Shown here: positions 42,100-47,238 of the stretch, piece by piece
How positions within the stretch are numbered: the first letter of the stretch is position 1
Layout: each line of letters begins with the position of its first letter
Source of the DNA: Gemmatimonadaceae bacterium
GTDB lineage: Bacteria; Gemmatimonadota; Gemmatimonadetes; Gemmatimonadales; Gemmatimonadaceae
Length of the DNA: 64,000 bases
Direction: 5' to 3'
Assembly (NCBI GenBank): GCA_035606695.1
Contig: DATNEW010000036.1
Span: forward strand, 62,001 to 126,000
The notes under the pieces: model-generated
Database searches by the model: none
What the model was told of the DNA's origin: nothing
What the model saw: only the letters and a program-made list of their open reading frames with translations
Translations under genes and position numbers: made by a program

Positions 42100-43296
42100 C
42101 TACGCGCGCGCTGCCTCCGACCGCTCGAAACGTAGCTGAAGGCGCTCCGGACCATGCACGTGGAACGCTTCGCGCGGCGTCCAGGGCTCGTCGCCGGCGC
42201 GCTCGAACCGCGTCCATCGCTCGAGCAATAATCCGAGCGCGATTCGCGCCTCGAGCCTCGCCAGCGGGGCCCCGACACAGAAGTGAATGCCGTGCCCGAA
42301 CGCGATGTGCGCATTCGGATGCCGCGTCACATCGAACGACTCGGCCCCGTCGAACCGCCGCGGGTCGCGATTCGCGGCTCCGATCACGAGCAGCACCATC
42401 TGCCCGGCGGGAATCGTGTGATCGCCGACTCGCGCGTCCTTCTTCGCGACGCGAAACATGGTTTGTACCGGCGATCGATATCGCAGCACCTCCTCGATCG
42501 CCGGAGCCAGCAACTCCGGCGCGATACGAAGCAGCGCGAGCTGATCCGGATGTTCGATGAACGACAACACGGCGTTCGCGATCAGATTCGTCGTCGTCTC
42601 GTGCCCGGCCAGCATCAGGAGCTGGAAGAATCCCAGGATTTCGTCATCGGTCAGGCGTTCGCCTTCTTCGTTCGGCTGCACGAGTGCCGTCAGCAGATCG
42701 TTCTCTGGCCGCGAGCGCCGCTCGTCGACGAGGCGGCCGACGTACTCGCGCATCTCCGCGTTCGCGACGGTGACGTCGTGAATCGCCTGCGCGGCGCGCG
42801 GATCGCCGCTGACGGTGTGGCTCAATCGGACGATCGCATCGCTCCACCGGCGAAACGTCGCGTAGTCCGACGGAGGCGCGCCAATCATCTCGGCAACGAC
42901 CATGAGCGGCAGCGGCATCGCGAAATCGCCGATCAACTCGATTTCGCCGGAGTCGGAGTTCGCGTCCGCGCGATCGAGCAGCGAACGCGCCAGCGCATCG
43001 ATGCGCGCTTCCAGCGCCGCCACGGAGCGCGGCGTAAACGCGCGCGCGATCAACGACCGCAGCCGCGTGTGCCTCGGTGGATCCGCGAAGATCAACCACT
43101 GACTCGTCAGCGCCCCGCCGGGCGACGCGGCCGAGCTGAACGTCGCGGCGTCGGCGAGTCCGCGCTTGGTGTCGTCGTAGCCCAGGAGCATCCACAGACC
43201 GGTGCGTGGTTCGCGAAACACCGGCGCCGCGGACCGAAGCTGTGCGTAGAGGGGATACGGATTGCGACGTGCGTCCTCGGAGAAGATGTCGATCAC
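42100..43296 (-). CDS. Cytochrome P450
   Basis: A 398-residue soluble bacterial P450 resembling the CYP107 group. Landmarks are the I-helix oxygen-binding segment MLAGHETTTNLIAN, the ExxR motif in IEEVLRYRSP, and the heme-thiolate loop FGHGIHFCVGAPLARLE with the axial cysteine at about residue 345. The start is a GTG at 43296 overlapping the tetR stop as GTGA. No ferredoxin or reductase gene is adjacent, so electron partners are encoded elsewhere. The substrate is unknown. Confidence 0.95.
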   Translation of the reverse strand: MIDIFSEDARRNPYPLYAQLRSAAPVFREPRTGLWMLLGYDDTKRGLADAATFSSAASPGGALTSQWLIFADPPRHTRLRSLIARAFTPRSVAALEARIDALARSLLDRADANSDSGEIELIGDFAMPLPLMVVAEMIGAPPSDYATFRRWSDAIVRLSHTVSGDPRAAQAIHDVTVANAEMREYVGRLVDERRSRPENDLLTALVQPNEEGERLTDDEILGFFQLLMLAGHETTTNLIANAVLSFIEHPDQLALLRIAPELLAPAIEEVLRYRSPVQTMFRVAKKDARVGDHTIPAGQMVLLVIGAANRDPRRFDGAESFDVTRHPNAHIAFGHGIHFCVGAPLARLEARIALGLLLERWTRFERAGDEPWTPREAFHVHGPERLQLRFERSEAARA

Positions 43297-43886
43297 AACG
43301 CGATACCTCGCAGCACGACGGCGGCGACGCGGCGCGTGAAGCGTTCGTCCACGCGGTCGCCGTCGATGAGAAAACGATAAAGCAGTGGTCCGGCGAAGAG
43401 ATGCGTGGCGAACGCCGCATCGAGTCCGCGGCGCAGCTCGCCGCGCGCGGCGGCGCGCGCGAGGATCTGTCGCATGGCATCGCGCCACGTCGCCACGAAG
43501 CCGTGACGGACCGCGCGAGCAATCGCCTCATTGCGCGCCATCGCCGCGACGAGACCGGACAACAAGTGGCGTGTCGCCGGATCCTCGTACATGATCGAGG
43601 TGGAGCGCAGCAGGCGGCGCACGTCGCCGCCGAGCGTGCCGGTGTCGGGCACGGGAACCTTGCGCATGATTCCGCCTAGCGCCTCGACGACGAGCGGCTC
43701 CTTCGACGCGAACCGCCGATAGAGCGTCGCCTTGCCCACTCCCGCCCGTTCGGCGATCCCCTCCATGGTCACGGCGTCGTAGCCGATGTCGCGAATGAGC
43801 GCGATGGCAGCGGCATGAAGGGCGGTGTCGGCATCCTGGCTGCGCGGCCGTCCGCGCGGCCGATTTACGATACGCTGGCGTGTCAT
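43293..43886 (-). CDS. TetR-family transcriptional regulator
   Basis: A 197-residue repressor with an Arg-rich N-terminus and the helix-turn-helix AVTMEGIAERAGVGKATLYRRFASKE, followed by an all-helical ligand-binding domain. It is the first gene of the tetR-P450-MFS unit and is coupled to the P450. A partly palindromic sequence at 43908-43931 lies 21 bases upstream and is a candidate operator. The inducer is probably a small hydrophobic compound handled by the P450 or the pump. Confidence 0.93.
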   Translation of the reverse strand: MTRQRIVNRPRGRPRSQDADTALHAAAIALIRDIGYDAVTMEGIAERAGVGKATLYRRFASKEPLVVEALGGIMRKVPVPDTGTLGGDVRRLLRSTSIMYEDPATRHLLSGLVAAMARNEAIARAVRHGFVATWRDAMRQILARAAARGELRRGLDAAFATHLFAGPLLYRFLIDGDRVDERFTRRVAAVVLRGIAL

Positions 43887-43931: not shown

Positions 43932-44020
43932 TAGCGTACTCGACGCTAGCAAGCTCCTTGCATAGGTCGATGGGTCCGATGGAAGCGACCGTGAGCCCCG
44001 CCCGAACCCAAGGAGAGCCG

Positions 44021-44689
44021 ATGCGCCCAAGCGATTGGGCACGGCTCCTCGTGCCGCTCCTCCTCATCGCGGCGTTTCTCGTCGCCGCGTGGAAGCTCGG
44101 CTACTTCAATCTCAAGGATCCATCGAAGCTCACCGCGGCGGCCGACCGCGCACAGAACCTTCCGTGGTTCGGACCCGTGTTCGCGATCGCCTACGGGGTC
44201 GTCGCGGCATTCGCCGCACCGGTCTCACCGCTGGCGTACGGCGCGGGCGCCATGTTCGGTGTCGTACAAGGTACGATCTGGGTGTGGACGGGCTCGATGA
44301 TCGGCGGCACGGCCGGTTACTGGCTCGCGCGCGGCGCGTGGGCCGGCGCCGCGAAGCGCATGCTCGGCCGCTATCAGGAAAAGCTGCAGGATCTCGAGCG
44401 CGGCAATGCGTTTCTCACCGTGCTGCGCGTGCAGTTGCTGCCGATCGTGCCGTTCGGGGTGTTCAACTACGCCGCCGGCGCCACGAAGGTACCGTTTCTT
44501 CCGTATCTCCTTGCCACGGCGATCGGCGTGATCCCGGGAAGCATCGCCGCGGTCTATGTCGGCGATCGCGTGGCGGCGGGATTCCGCGGCGGCGGCAAGA
44601 GTGCGTTTCTCGTCGCGGCCATCGTCATGGCCGCGCTCTTCGCGCTCTCCTTCCTGCCCAATCTGATCAAGAAGCTGCGCGGGCGCTGA
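44021..44689 (+). CDS. TVP38/TMEM64 (DedA-like) membrane protein
   Basis: A 222-residue polytopic membrane protein. The strong AAGGAG ribosome-binding site fixes the ATG at 44021. The SNARE-associated/DedA-like core is visible: FAIAYGVVAAFAAPVSPLAY, GTIWVWTGSMIGGTAGYWLAR, and RVQLLPIVPFGVFNYAAGAT, with the re-entrant-loop prolines and arginines. The family includes lipid flippase/scramblase candidates. The 3' end overlaps the convergent dsbA-like gene by 23 bases. Confidence 0.88.
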   Translation: MRPSDWARLLVPLLLIAAFLVAAWKLGYFNLKDPSKLTAAADRAQNLPWFGPVFAIAYGVVAAFAAPVSPLAYGAGAMFGVVQGTIWVWTGSMIGGTAGYWLARGAWAGAAKRMLGRYQEKLQDLERGNAFLTVLRVQLLPIVPFGVFNYAAGATKVPFLPYLLATAIGVIPGSIAAVYVGDRVAAGFRGGGKSAFLVAAIVMAALFALSFLPNLIKKLRGR

Positions 44690-45329
44690 GTGCCGCGTCG
44701 AGATGACGCGTGAGCATCTGCACCGACGCGCCGATGCGCGGCAGCGGTGAGATGAATCCATCGCTGACCACGAGCAGCGTCGGAAATGACGTCGCGCCGA
44801 GCGCGCGTGCGAGCGCGAAGTCTTCGGTCGCGGCCATGCCGCCTTGCGGGCCGGTCATGAAGGCGCGCACTCTCGCCGCGTCCAGCTGGAGGGTGCGCGC
44901 GACGTCGGCGAACGTGTCCGGGTCAGAGAGGCTACGGCCGTCGATGTAGAACGCGTGCTGCATGGCCGCGGCGATCTCGACGGCGCGCTCGGGCGCCTGC
45001 TCGCGCAACGCCGCGAAGCCCGCGGCGGCGGCCTCTGAGTCGAGCACGAGCGAGCCATCGCGCAGCACCGCGTCGAATCCATCGCCGAATTGCGCGCCGG
45101 TGTACTGCGTCACGCGCGCGTTGGCCTCTCGAATGAAACCCAACGTGCCGATGCGCGGCTTGTTCGCGCCAACGAACAAGCCGCCACTCACCACCCGAAA
45201 CGGCACACGGTGGCGATTGGCTTGCCAGAAGGCCATGAGCGTTTCATCGAAGCCGTAACACCAGCCGCAGTAGCCGTCGAACACGTACACGACTTCAGGC
45301 GACTGCCAATGGAGATCGATCGCCGTCAT
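44667..45329 (-). CDS. DsbA-family thioredoxin-fold protein
   Basis: A 220-residue cytoplasmic protein (no signal peptide) of the DsbA/FrnE type. The active-site motif is Cys21-Gly-Trp-Cys24 in FDGYCGWCYG, and the cis-proline is in GATSFPTLLVV. Helical insert residues about 60-150 match the DsbA alpha domain. It is the last gene of the marR-doxX-VOC-dsbA unit, 9 bases after the VOC gene. A role in thiol redox or quinone/electrophile defence is suggested by context only. Confidence 0.88.
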   Translation of the reverse strand: MTAIDLHWQSPEVVYVFDGYCGWCYGFDETLMAFWQANRHRVPFRVVSGGLFVGANKPRIGTLGFIREANARVTQYTGAQFGDGFDAVLRDGSLVLDSEAAAAGFAALREQAPERAVEIAAAMQHAFYIDGRSLSDPDTFADVARTLQLDAARVRAFMTGPQGGMAATEDFALARALGATSFPTLLVVSDGFISPLPRIGASVQMLTRHLDAALSARAAS

Positions 45330-45338
45330 ACCAGTTCT

Positions 45339-46244
45339 CTAATCGACGCGGCCGGTGACGAGCCGCAGTTGCGTGCCCCATGGATCGCGTACGGCGACAC
45401 CGCTGCTCGGGCGATCGACGAGATGCCCCGCCGCCTCCAGACTCTCGACCGCGCCGTTCACGTCGCTCTCGCCGGGAAGCACCAGCTCCCAGTCGAGCAG
45501 CCGTGCGTCGTCGACCGTCGAGAGCGGCGCGCCGGCCGCCCACGTGTTGGTTCCGAGATGATGGTGGTAGCCGCCCGCCGACATGAACAACGCACCCGGG
45601 TAGCTCCACACCACCTTGTCGAGTCCCAGCGCGCGATGATAGAACGCCTCGGCCTCTTCGATGTTGCGCACGTACAGGTGTACGTGACCGATCGTGGTGC
45701 CGGCCGGCGCGCCCGTCCATTTCTCGCCGTTCGCCGACGCGACGAGGTCGGGCACGTCGAGCGGAATCGTCGTCATGGCCAGCTGGCGATCTTCGGCGCG
45801 CCACGCACTGCGCGGACGATCCGCATACACCTCGATGCCGAGCCCGTCGGGATCCGTGAGATAGACCGCTTCGCTGACGAAGTGGTCCGACATACCGGCG
45901 TACGCGCCGATGTCGCCGAGGTGCGCGACGAAGCGGCCGAGTGCCGCGCGGTCCGGCAGCAGGATGGCGAAATGATACAGGCCGATGTGCCCGCGACGCG
46001 CGACGGGCCGAACACCCTGCTTTTCGTGCAGCTCGACGAGCACGCGGTCGCCTTCCTGAGCACCGAGCATGGCGACGCCGCCGGCGCGATCGATCACGCG
46101 CAAGCCGATGACCGTTTCATAATAGGCGATCGAGCGTTCGAGATCGGCGACTTGCAGCCGAACCCGGCCGATATGTGTGGCGTCGGGCAGCCGGTATCCC
46201 GGCGGCGCAATGCCGTATGGAAGAGCGGATGCAATGGTGGTCAT
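45339..46244 (-). CDS. VOC-family dioxygenase (CatE-like)
   Basis: A 301-residue protein of two vicinal-oxygen-chelate units. The first has ATHIGRVRLQVADLERSIAYY and GHIGLYHFAILLPDRAALG; the second has TTIGHVHLYVRNIEEAEAFYH, the histidine-rich SAGGYHHHLGTNTW and a C-terminal GVAVRDPWGTQLRL. His and Glu/Asp positions suit a metal site like catechol-2,3-dioxygenases of the Bacillus CatE type. It overlaps doxX (ATGA), as catE follows catD in Bacillus subtilis. The true substrate, a catechol or quinol, is inferred. Confidence 0.88.
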   Translation of the reverse strand: MTTIASALPYGIAPPGYRLPDATHIGRVRLQVADLERSIAYYETVIGLRVIDRAGGVAMLGAQEGDRVLVELHEKQGVRPVARRGHIGLYHFAILLPDRAALGRFVAHLGDIGAYAGMSDHFVSEAVYLTDPDGLGIEVYADRPRSAWRAEDRQLAMTTIPLDVPDLVASANGEKWTGAPAGTTIGHVHLYVRNIEEAEAFYHRALGLDKVVWSYPGALFMSAGGYHHHLGTNTWAAGAPLSTVDDARLLDWELVLPGESDVNGAVESLEAAGHLVDRPSSGVAVRDPWGTQLRLVTGRVD

Positions 46245-46663
46245 ACGTGCGTCCTCCGCCGCGCGAGCGACGCGTCGAGCGAATAATCCCCCGCGCCCGC
46301 GATGACGAGCACGGCATACATGCCGAGGAGGGAGAGTGGAAACTCGAAACCCATCGGCGCGAAGAAGCCGTTCTTGAAGTGCACGAACGTGATTGCACCC
46401 AGCATATCGAACGCCAGTCCGAGCGCGGCGAGCCGGGTGAGCAGGCCGATGAGAATCGCGATGGGCGCCAGGACCTCGAGCACACCGATGAACGGGCCCA
46501 TCACGTTCGCGCCGGGAATGCCCATCTTCACGAAGTTCGCGCCGACGTTGCCGAGCCCGAACACGAAGACTTTCTGCAGCCCGTGCACGATCATGATGCC
46601 GCCGGCGACGAGACGCAGGACGAGGAGGCCGAGGTTGACGCGCGGGATGTTGTCGTTGGTCAT
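46241..46663 (-). CDS. DoxX-family membrane protein (CatD-like)
   Basis: A 140-residue four-helix membrane protein: LGLLVLRLVAGGIMIVHGLQK at the N-terminus, GPFIGVLEVLAPIAILIGLL, AALGLAFDMLGAITF, and PLSLLGMYAVLVIAGAG. DoxX proteins are quinone-linked; in Bacillus subtilis the family member CatD is co-transcribed with the CatE dioxygenase. It is the first gene after marR. A copy of the GTGTTATAACAC palindrome lies 46 bases upstream of its start. Confidence 0.92.
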   Translation of the reverse strand: MTNDNIPRVNLGLLVLRLVAGGIMIVHGLQKVFVFGLGNVGANFVKMGIPGANVMGPFIGVLEVLAPIAILIGLLTRLAALGLAFDMLGAITFVHFKNGFFAPMGFEFPLSLLGMYAVLVIAGAGDYSLDASLARRRTHV

Positions 46664-46708
46664 GGGTGGTCGTTCCGGTAGAGGATCACTACGCTGTTAG
46701 GACTACTA

Positions 46709-46720
46709 GTGTTATAACAC
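46709..46720. promoter_or_regulatory. MarR operator copy upstream of doxX
   Basis: A perfect 12-bp palindrome GTGTTATAACAC in the marR-doxX gap. With flanks it reads AGTGTTATAACACCT, the reverse complement of the copy at 47217-47228 over 14 bases (AGGTGTTATAACAC). It probably puts doxX-VOC-dsbA under MarR control separately from marR. Confidence 0.8.
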
Positions 46721-46735
46721 CTATTCGGTCGAACA

Positions 46736-47203
46736 TCAGACACCCTGGCGCGCCAACGTCAGCAGCTCGTTGAGTGCCCGAAGCTGCTTGTTCGTCATGT
46801 GGCCCAAGTGCTGTTTGTGGACTCGAGCGATGGGTTCGTCCAGCGTGCGGAGCAGTGCGTTGCCTCGTGTGGTGATTCGGGTGCCGACCAGCCGTCGGTC
46901 GGTGGTGCTGCGCTCGCGTTCGATGAGCCCGATTTCCTCGAGGCGGTCGAGCAGCCGCGTGACGTCGGGCACCTGAGCAATCAGGCGATCGCGCACTTCG
47001 TTCCGACATAAGCCTTCTTTGCCCGCCCCGCGCAAAATGCGCAGCGCGTTGTATTGCGTGGGCGTGACGCCGTATGGTTTGAGCGCTTCGGCGAACGCGT
47101 GGCCGAGCACGGCCGCGGTGCGCTCAATGTTGAGCTGGGCTTCCTGCTCGAGGCTGGTAAACGGTTTCGTTTGCTTGATTTCGGATCGGAGGCCGGATGA
47201 CAT
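46736..47203 (-). CDS. MarR-family transcriptional regulator
   Basis: A 155-residue winged-helix repressor. The first part QEAQLNIERTAAVLGHAFAE is the dimerisation helix, TPTQYNALRILRG and GLCRNEVRDRLIAQVPDVTRLLDRLE form the DNA-binding helices, and ERSTTDRRLVGTRITTRGNAL is the wing. The ATG at 47203 lies 7 bases from a -10 box, implying a leaderless mRNA. Cysteine is present at about residue 67 (LCRNE) and might sense electrophiles, as in related quinone-responsive regulators; that is inference. Confidence 0.93.
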   Translation of the reverse strand: MSSGLRSEIKQTKPFTSLEQEAQLNIERTAAVLGHAFAEALKPYGVTPTQYNALRILRGAGKEGLCRNEVRDRLIAQVPDVTRLLDRLEEIGLIERERSTTDRRLVGTRITTRGNALLRTLDEPIARVHKQHLGHMTNKQLRALNELLTLARQGV

Positions 47204-47209
47204 GCCCGC

Positions 47210-47238
47210 AAGATAGGTGTTATAACACGCATCGTCAA
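47210..47238 (-). promoter_or_regulatory. marR promoter with embedded operator (leaderless)
   Basis: On the minus strand, TTGACG at 47238-47233 and TATCTT at 47215-47210 are 17 bases apart. The palindrome GTGTTATAACAC (47217-47228) fills the spacer, a typical place for repression. The predicted start site coincides with the marR ATG at 47203, so the transcript should lack a 5' leader. Confidence 0.75.

Follow-up and report, generated by a model that had tools for sequence, protein, structure and literature searches.

What do two identical perfect palindromes do at the head of a gene cluster that joins a MarR-family regulator to candidate detoxification enzymes? This question is raised by a locus within a window of 64,000 nucleotides from a Gemmatimonadaceae bacterium (GenBank assembly GCA_035606695.1, contig DATNEW010000036.1, positions 62,001 to 126,000), where genes for a MarR protein, a DoxX membrane protein, a two-unit VOC enzyme and a DsbA-like protein all lie on the minus strand (Table 1). 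We consider it likely that the MarR protein is an autorepressor acting through two GTGTTATAACAC operators, and that quinone or catechol would release the doxX-VOC(-dsbA) operon from its control.

Two operator copies and the marR promoter

We observed GTGTTATAACAC with zero mismatches in front of both marR and doxX, in agreement with a preliminary description of this DNA; a scan of the window with up to two mismatches produced zero matches beyond these two (0.24 expected). The whole assembly (5,905,535 bases, 5.9 Mb) contains exactly two perfect copies, both at the marR-doxX locus, and one 1-mismatch site elsewhere. The degenerate core TGTNRTNACA was not enriched in the same genome (27/23 versus 22/34 in the control); thus, in this genome the information lies in the full palindrome alone. 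The two sites share a longer unit in inverted orientation, as had been noticed, though its length is 16 bases rather than the 14 given before (ATAGGTGTTATAACAC; 47213-47228 on the plus strand, 46709-46724 on the minus strand). The four gene families named earlier were all recovered by Pfam (MarR, DoxX, two Glyoxalase units, DSBA). The doxX and VOC genes overlap by 4 bases, and the VOC and dsbA-like genes are 9 bases apart.

The preliminary description did not mention that the operator at 47217-47228 is framed by promoter elements. On the minus strand the order is TTGACG-ATGC-GTGTTATAACAC-C-TATCTT-GCGGGC-ATG, a sigma-70-like promoter in which the operator fills the 17-bp spacer. As the ATG of marR comes 6 nt past the -10 element, the transcript is predicted to be leaderless. 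The promoter-operator layout is identical in orthologous MarR loci, and in about 35 of 40 loci the start codon is situated 5-9 nt past the -10 element; a leaderless marR mRNA is therefore predicted to be conserved in several phyla.

The following mechanism would account for this arrangement. A dimer of the MarR-family protein would bind the extended palindrome tAgGTGTTATAACAcCTa and repress marR as well as the downstream doxX-VOC(-dsbA) genes. At the single spacer operator of marR, bound repressor would keep RNA polymerase out and set its own level, while doxX-VOC-dsbA would have a promoter of their own, controlled by the second operator together with a weaker copy 15 bp further on. The repressor would leave the DNA in response to an electrophile, for which a quinone or catechol is the likeliest candidate. 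The VOC enzyme would then cleave the ring of catechol or thiol-quinone adducts and DoxX would act at the membrane; with a DsbM-like cytosolic thiol oxidoreductase beside them, the compound would be cleared and thiols repaired.

Table 1. Coordinates of genes and regulatory elements at the marR-doxX locus
Feature	Coordinates	Strand	Basis
marR, putative repressor, 155 aa	46736..47203 (ATG at 47203)	-	Pfam MarR, alignments, model
doxX, membrane protein, CatD-like	46241..46663	-	Pfam DoxX
Two-unit VOC ring-cleavage-type dioxygenase, CatE-like	45339..46244	-	Pfam Glyoxalase, conserved residues, nearest folds
DsbA-fold CGWC protein like cytosolic DsbM; accessory gene of this genome, probably co-transcribed	44667..45329	-	Pfam DSBA, PDB 5hfi
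Putative operator O1, GTGTTATAACAC, in the marR promoter, inside its 17-bp spacer	47217..47228		Sequence, conservation
Putative operator O2, GTGTTATAACAC, upstream of doxX, part of the 16-bp shared unit 46709-46724	46709..46720		Sequence, conservation
Weak repeat of the operator in tandem, AGTCCTAACA, 15 bp past O2 in the downstream direction, differing from TGTTATAACA at 3 positions	46695..46704	-	Offset conserved
marR promoter -35 element, TTGACG	47233..47238	-	Sequence, layout conserved
marR promoter -10 element, TATCTT	47210..47215	-	Sequence; ATG 6 nt further on

Conservation in related genomes

Relatives of the regulator were gathered from 47 loci of a contig collection and from 59 related genomes, most of them metagenome-assembled. 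Of 95 loci, 48 have TGTTATAACA or close variants in the marR promoter according to an automatic rule; a few of the 48, mainly from Bacteroidetes, were doubtful and were excluded from later counts. The layout was also searched for blindly, with the pattern TTGNCNNNNNNTGTNRTNACANNTANNNT, in 395 Gemmatimonadota genomes. We observed 41 sites, spread over 34 genomes, and none with the reversed pattern that served as control; 39 of the 41 adjoin a relative of the window's MarR or MarR target genes. A marR orthologue is directly downstream of 28 sites; eight are upstream of doxX, VOC or YceI genes and are not directly followed by marR, and three occupy the gap between marR and a divergently oriented gene. 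The remaining two (L104, L105), upstream of genes for a DUF177-type protein and a plsX-like protein (a housekeeping promoter), were rejected as chance matches. The preliminary description took the palindrome for a MarR operator and named a lack of conservation as grounds for dropping the idea; the opposite was seen, the palindrome being conserved beside orthologues of marR and doxX.

Three sites occur in one genome (G310), where they accompany marR-doxX-VOC, a lone YceI gene and a lone doxX gene, so the regulator probably acts in trans. The promoter-embedded operator was found beside MarR orthologues in Gemmatimonadota, Acidobacteriota and Sumerlaeota, and is present as well at a marR-doxX-VOC locus on a Deinococcus plasmid. 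In this plasmid, from Deinococcus taeanensis (L133), the genes form a marR-doxX-VOC-doxX-VOC cluster; its operators are CGTCACAACG and CGTTATCACG, and an extra TGTTGGAACA promoter site lies ahead of the VOC gene. Judged from these genomes, a cross-phylum MarR autorepressor regulon appears to be real.

At a few Gemmatimonadota loci (L102, L103, L149 and G037:C44:229779-229807) the promoter with the operator is oriented divergently from marR, and in one genome (G242) it points toward cupredoxin-like genes. A sister MarR clade of about 7 loci (L025-L030, L079) has GLPTL in place of GLC and a recognition helix of the form P-G/A-I/V-TR; TGTTATAACA is missing upstream of marR in this clade, where a palindrome such as TTGACATGTCAA includes the -35 box.

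The second operator was counted in 40 orthologous loci with flanking sequence, up to 150 bases behind marR, with dinucleotide shuffles as control. A second site with at most one mismatch was present in 22 of the 40 loci, compared with 0.2 in the shuffles (maximum 2). Among 31 loci with a second site, 21 had a further copy exactly 15 bases past it (up to 4 mismatches; about 1 expected), while the offsets of 14 and 16 bases were seen in 1 and 0 loci. The target promoter is thus served by a tandem pair of sites and the marR promoter by one operator.

Target genes and the inducing signal

What lies behind these operators bears on the signal. The first genes behind marR encode DoxX in 22 loci or YceI in 20, some YceI genes being further away; orthologous regulons also include genes for a CatE-like two-domain VOC protein, pirin, a SnoaL-like protein and an MhqO-type enzyme. 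The latter is a target in three loci (L017, L094, L120), with none in the window; it matches Bacillus subtilis MhqO (3oaj, 1.6e-48) and a dichlorohydroquinone dioxygenase (4huz, 9e-28). Ring-cleavage dioxygenases belong to the quinone regulons of B. subtilis and Staphylococcus aureus (PMC6798810). YceI, pirin and a true MhqO-type dioxygenase in the orthologous regulons therefore support an electrophile theme, and the target set as a whole points to a function in defence against aromatic electrophiles of the quinone/phenol kind.

In the window, DoxX scores 73.2 bits against PF07681 (cut-off 23.6). In the VOC protein, for which the structure model is of moderate confidence, H91, E138 and H187 are invariant in 7 relatives and are candidates for a 2-His-1-Glu metal site; the nearest folds are 1zsw and 3oaj. 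We presume a resemblance to B. subtilis CatE and use it as a lead only.

The DsbA-like protein has a CGWC motif, and its sequence has no visible signal peptide; the closest PDB entry is the cytosolic disulfide reductase DsbM (5hfi, E=6e-18), with which it shares the DsbA fold and the CxxC arrangement. A difference from DsbM is that this putative reductase is encoded here in a detoxification operon. The gene had been taken for part of the unit. A search of the 117 other genomes of the family yielded no homologue at E<=1e-10 (1/118 including its own), and in the two same-genus relatives with a marR-doxX-VOC locus the gene is missing next to it. We rejected it as a conserved regulon member; on these comparisons it is a private addition of this genome. 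Its nearest plasmid relative, on plasmid 3 of Deinococcus deserti (L132), is beside a gene for an NAD(P)-dependent oxidoreductase, with a wrbA quinone reductase (NAD(P)H:quinone oxidoreductase) gene and another MarR gene nearby.

Several observations weigh against a quinone-released autorepressor of this kind. The regulator's only Cys, immediately ahead of helix 3, recurs in 40 of the 48 operator-bearing MarR proteins; not being universal, it need not be the sensor. A clear second operator is missing in about a quarter of the operator-bearing loci, and no strong -35/-10 pair was seen for the internal doxX promoter within the window. Also, the VOC protein scores 43 bits against the catechol 2,3-dioxygenase model TIGR03211 (cut-off 320). 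From the initial idea of a CatD/CatE-like electrophile-defence unit we retain the electrophile/quinone theme; the identity of the VOC enzyme with CatE is at most an analogy.

The same repressor and operators could respond to another signal. Were it reactive sulfur or thiol oxidation, DoxX would take part in chemistry like that of thiosulfate:quinone oxidoreductase, and the DsbM-type protein would restore thiols. The resemblance of DoxX to DoxD, the DsbM-type accessory gene and a Cys next to the DNA-binding helices, conserved in most of the operator-bearing MarR proteins, are in favor of this explanation, as is the sulfane sulfur sensing reported for some MarR proteins (PMC11211675). Still, ring-cleavage dioxygenases, pirin and YceI in the orthologous regulons fit aromatic electrophiles better, and the targets examined include neither a sulfurtransferase nor a persulfide dioxygenase, so we regard a sulfur signal as unlikely.

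It is quite unlikely, in our estimate, that the operon serves aromatic catabolism under an HpaR-like switch instead of defence. In NCBIfam the regulator does match HpaR best, at 47 bits (below the cut-off of 121), and the extradiol-type fold of the VOC enzyme would suit ring catabolism; but the unit has no downstream pathway genes (hydrolase, decarboxylase, aldolase) and the regulon consists of scattered single genes. Sensing of a metal such as copper seems very unlikely. It would draw on a sub-threshold match of DoxX to the HvfX model (53 bits, cut-off 80), on the gold and copper response of DoxX-containing GIG operons (PMC5413113) and on the cupredoxin-like genes at one divergent locus, whereas the main target set is free of copper proteins, the HvfX match falls under its cut-off and VOC enzymes imply aromatic substrates. 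That the palindromes arose by chance, as short AT-rich ones do in some sequences, or belong to another regulator is hardly credible, given a pair unique in the genome, zero counts in the reversed control and a position conserved with marR.

The regulator and known quinone regulons

The quinone-responsive autorepressor is the preferred explanation; its regulator is compared here with characterized ones. The protein matches PF01047 MarR at 36.6 bits (cut-off 24.6), and its structure was modelled with a pLDDT of 94. Alignments revealed an N-terminal signature, EIKQTKPF, and placed the start of the recognition helix at PDVTRLLDRL. By both sequence and fold the closest solved structure is PDB 3u2r, a MarR protein of Planctomyces limnophilus, which nevertheless has neither the EIKQTKPF motif nor the Cys, and for which the sources searched describe no function; S. 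aureus MhqR ranks fourth among PDB fold matches.

The B. subtilis catDE genes encode a DoxX protein and a two-domain VOC dioxygenase, a pair like the one observed here, and are under YodB/CatR control. Both YodB and CatR belong to the DUF24 type of redox switch and carry Cys6/Cys7 at the N terminus (PMC6798810). The regulator of the window is, in contrast, a classical MarR protein whose Cys is before helix 3, with no HxlR (DUF24) Pfam match and no N-terminal Cys; as to the regulator, the parallel to catDE drawn before is at most an analogy. The MhqR regulon of B. subtilis and S. aureus is similar in having a MarR-type repressor of quinone ring-cleavage dioxygenases, with an MhqO-type enzyme in the orthologous regulons described above. 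However, the MhqR operator, TATCTCGAA-aTCGAaATA, is at -6 to +12 and overlaps the transcription start (PMC6798810), unlike GTGTTATAACAC in the -35/-10 spacer; the regulator is 21% identical to MhqR, and the unit has no hydrolase or azoreductase. Given an operator unlike that of MhqR in sequence and position, and a protein that is not of DUF24 type, the system would work like those quinone regulons and be a member of neither. A literature search, with most subscription journals outside its reach, found no paper describing the operator or the regulon and nothing on MarR with DoxX, YceI or pirin; matches to the bare palindrome were unrelated.

Operator sequence varies with the residue before the recognition helix. 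Among operator-bearing members, Asp at this position goes mostly with CGTTATAACG-type operators, plus two mixed cases and one TGTTGCAACA; Val/Met and other residues go with the TGTTATAACA type, with two mixed cases and none of CC type. The Deinococcus plasmid locus agrees with the correlation. The correlation falls short of proving a one-residue specificity code, since on a tree of 45 proteins the Val/Met types form essentially one clade, with too few independent changes. We put forward tentatively, as possible and somewhat short of probable, a joint reading: an undescribed MarR subfamily with the EIKQTKPF signature would run one electrophile regulon in several phyla, always built alike, from a leaderless marR with a single promoter-embedded operator and with tandem target operators 15 bp apart giving ordered derepression, and DNA specificity would follow one residue where the recognition helix begins (Val/Met for TGTTATAACA, Asp for CGTTATAACG).

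With operator, promoter geometry and target list defined for an uncharacterised MarR subfamily, found in several phyla with few genetic tools, its regulons become predictable straight from genomes. The comparison suggests that CatDE-like quinone defence, which in Firmicutes is under DUF24 proteins and MhqR, has a different regulator and operator in other phyla. The subfamily may also offer a clean case for comparing one operator with a tandem pair, and for testing whether a single residue alters DNA specificity.

Two further genes identified by Pfam lie near the dsbA-like gene: one for a TetR-family regulator (43293-43886, minus strand) and one for a VTT-domain membrane protein (43958-44689, plus strand). 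The VTT-domain gene and the dsbA-like gene are convergent.

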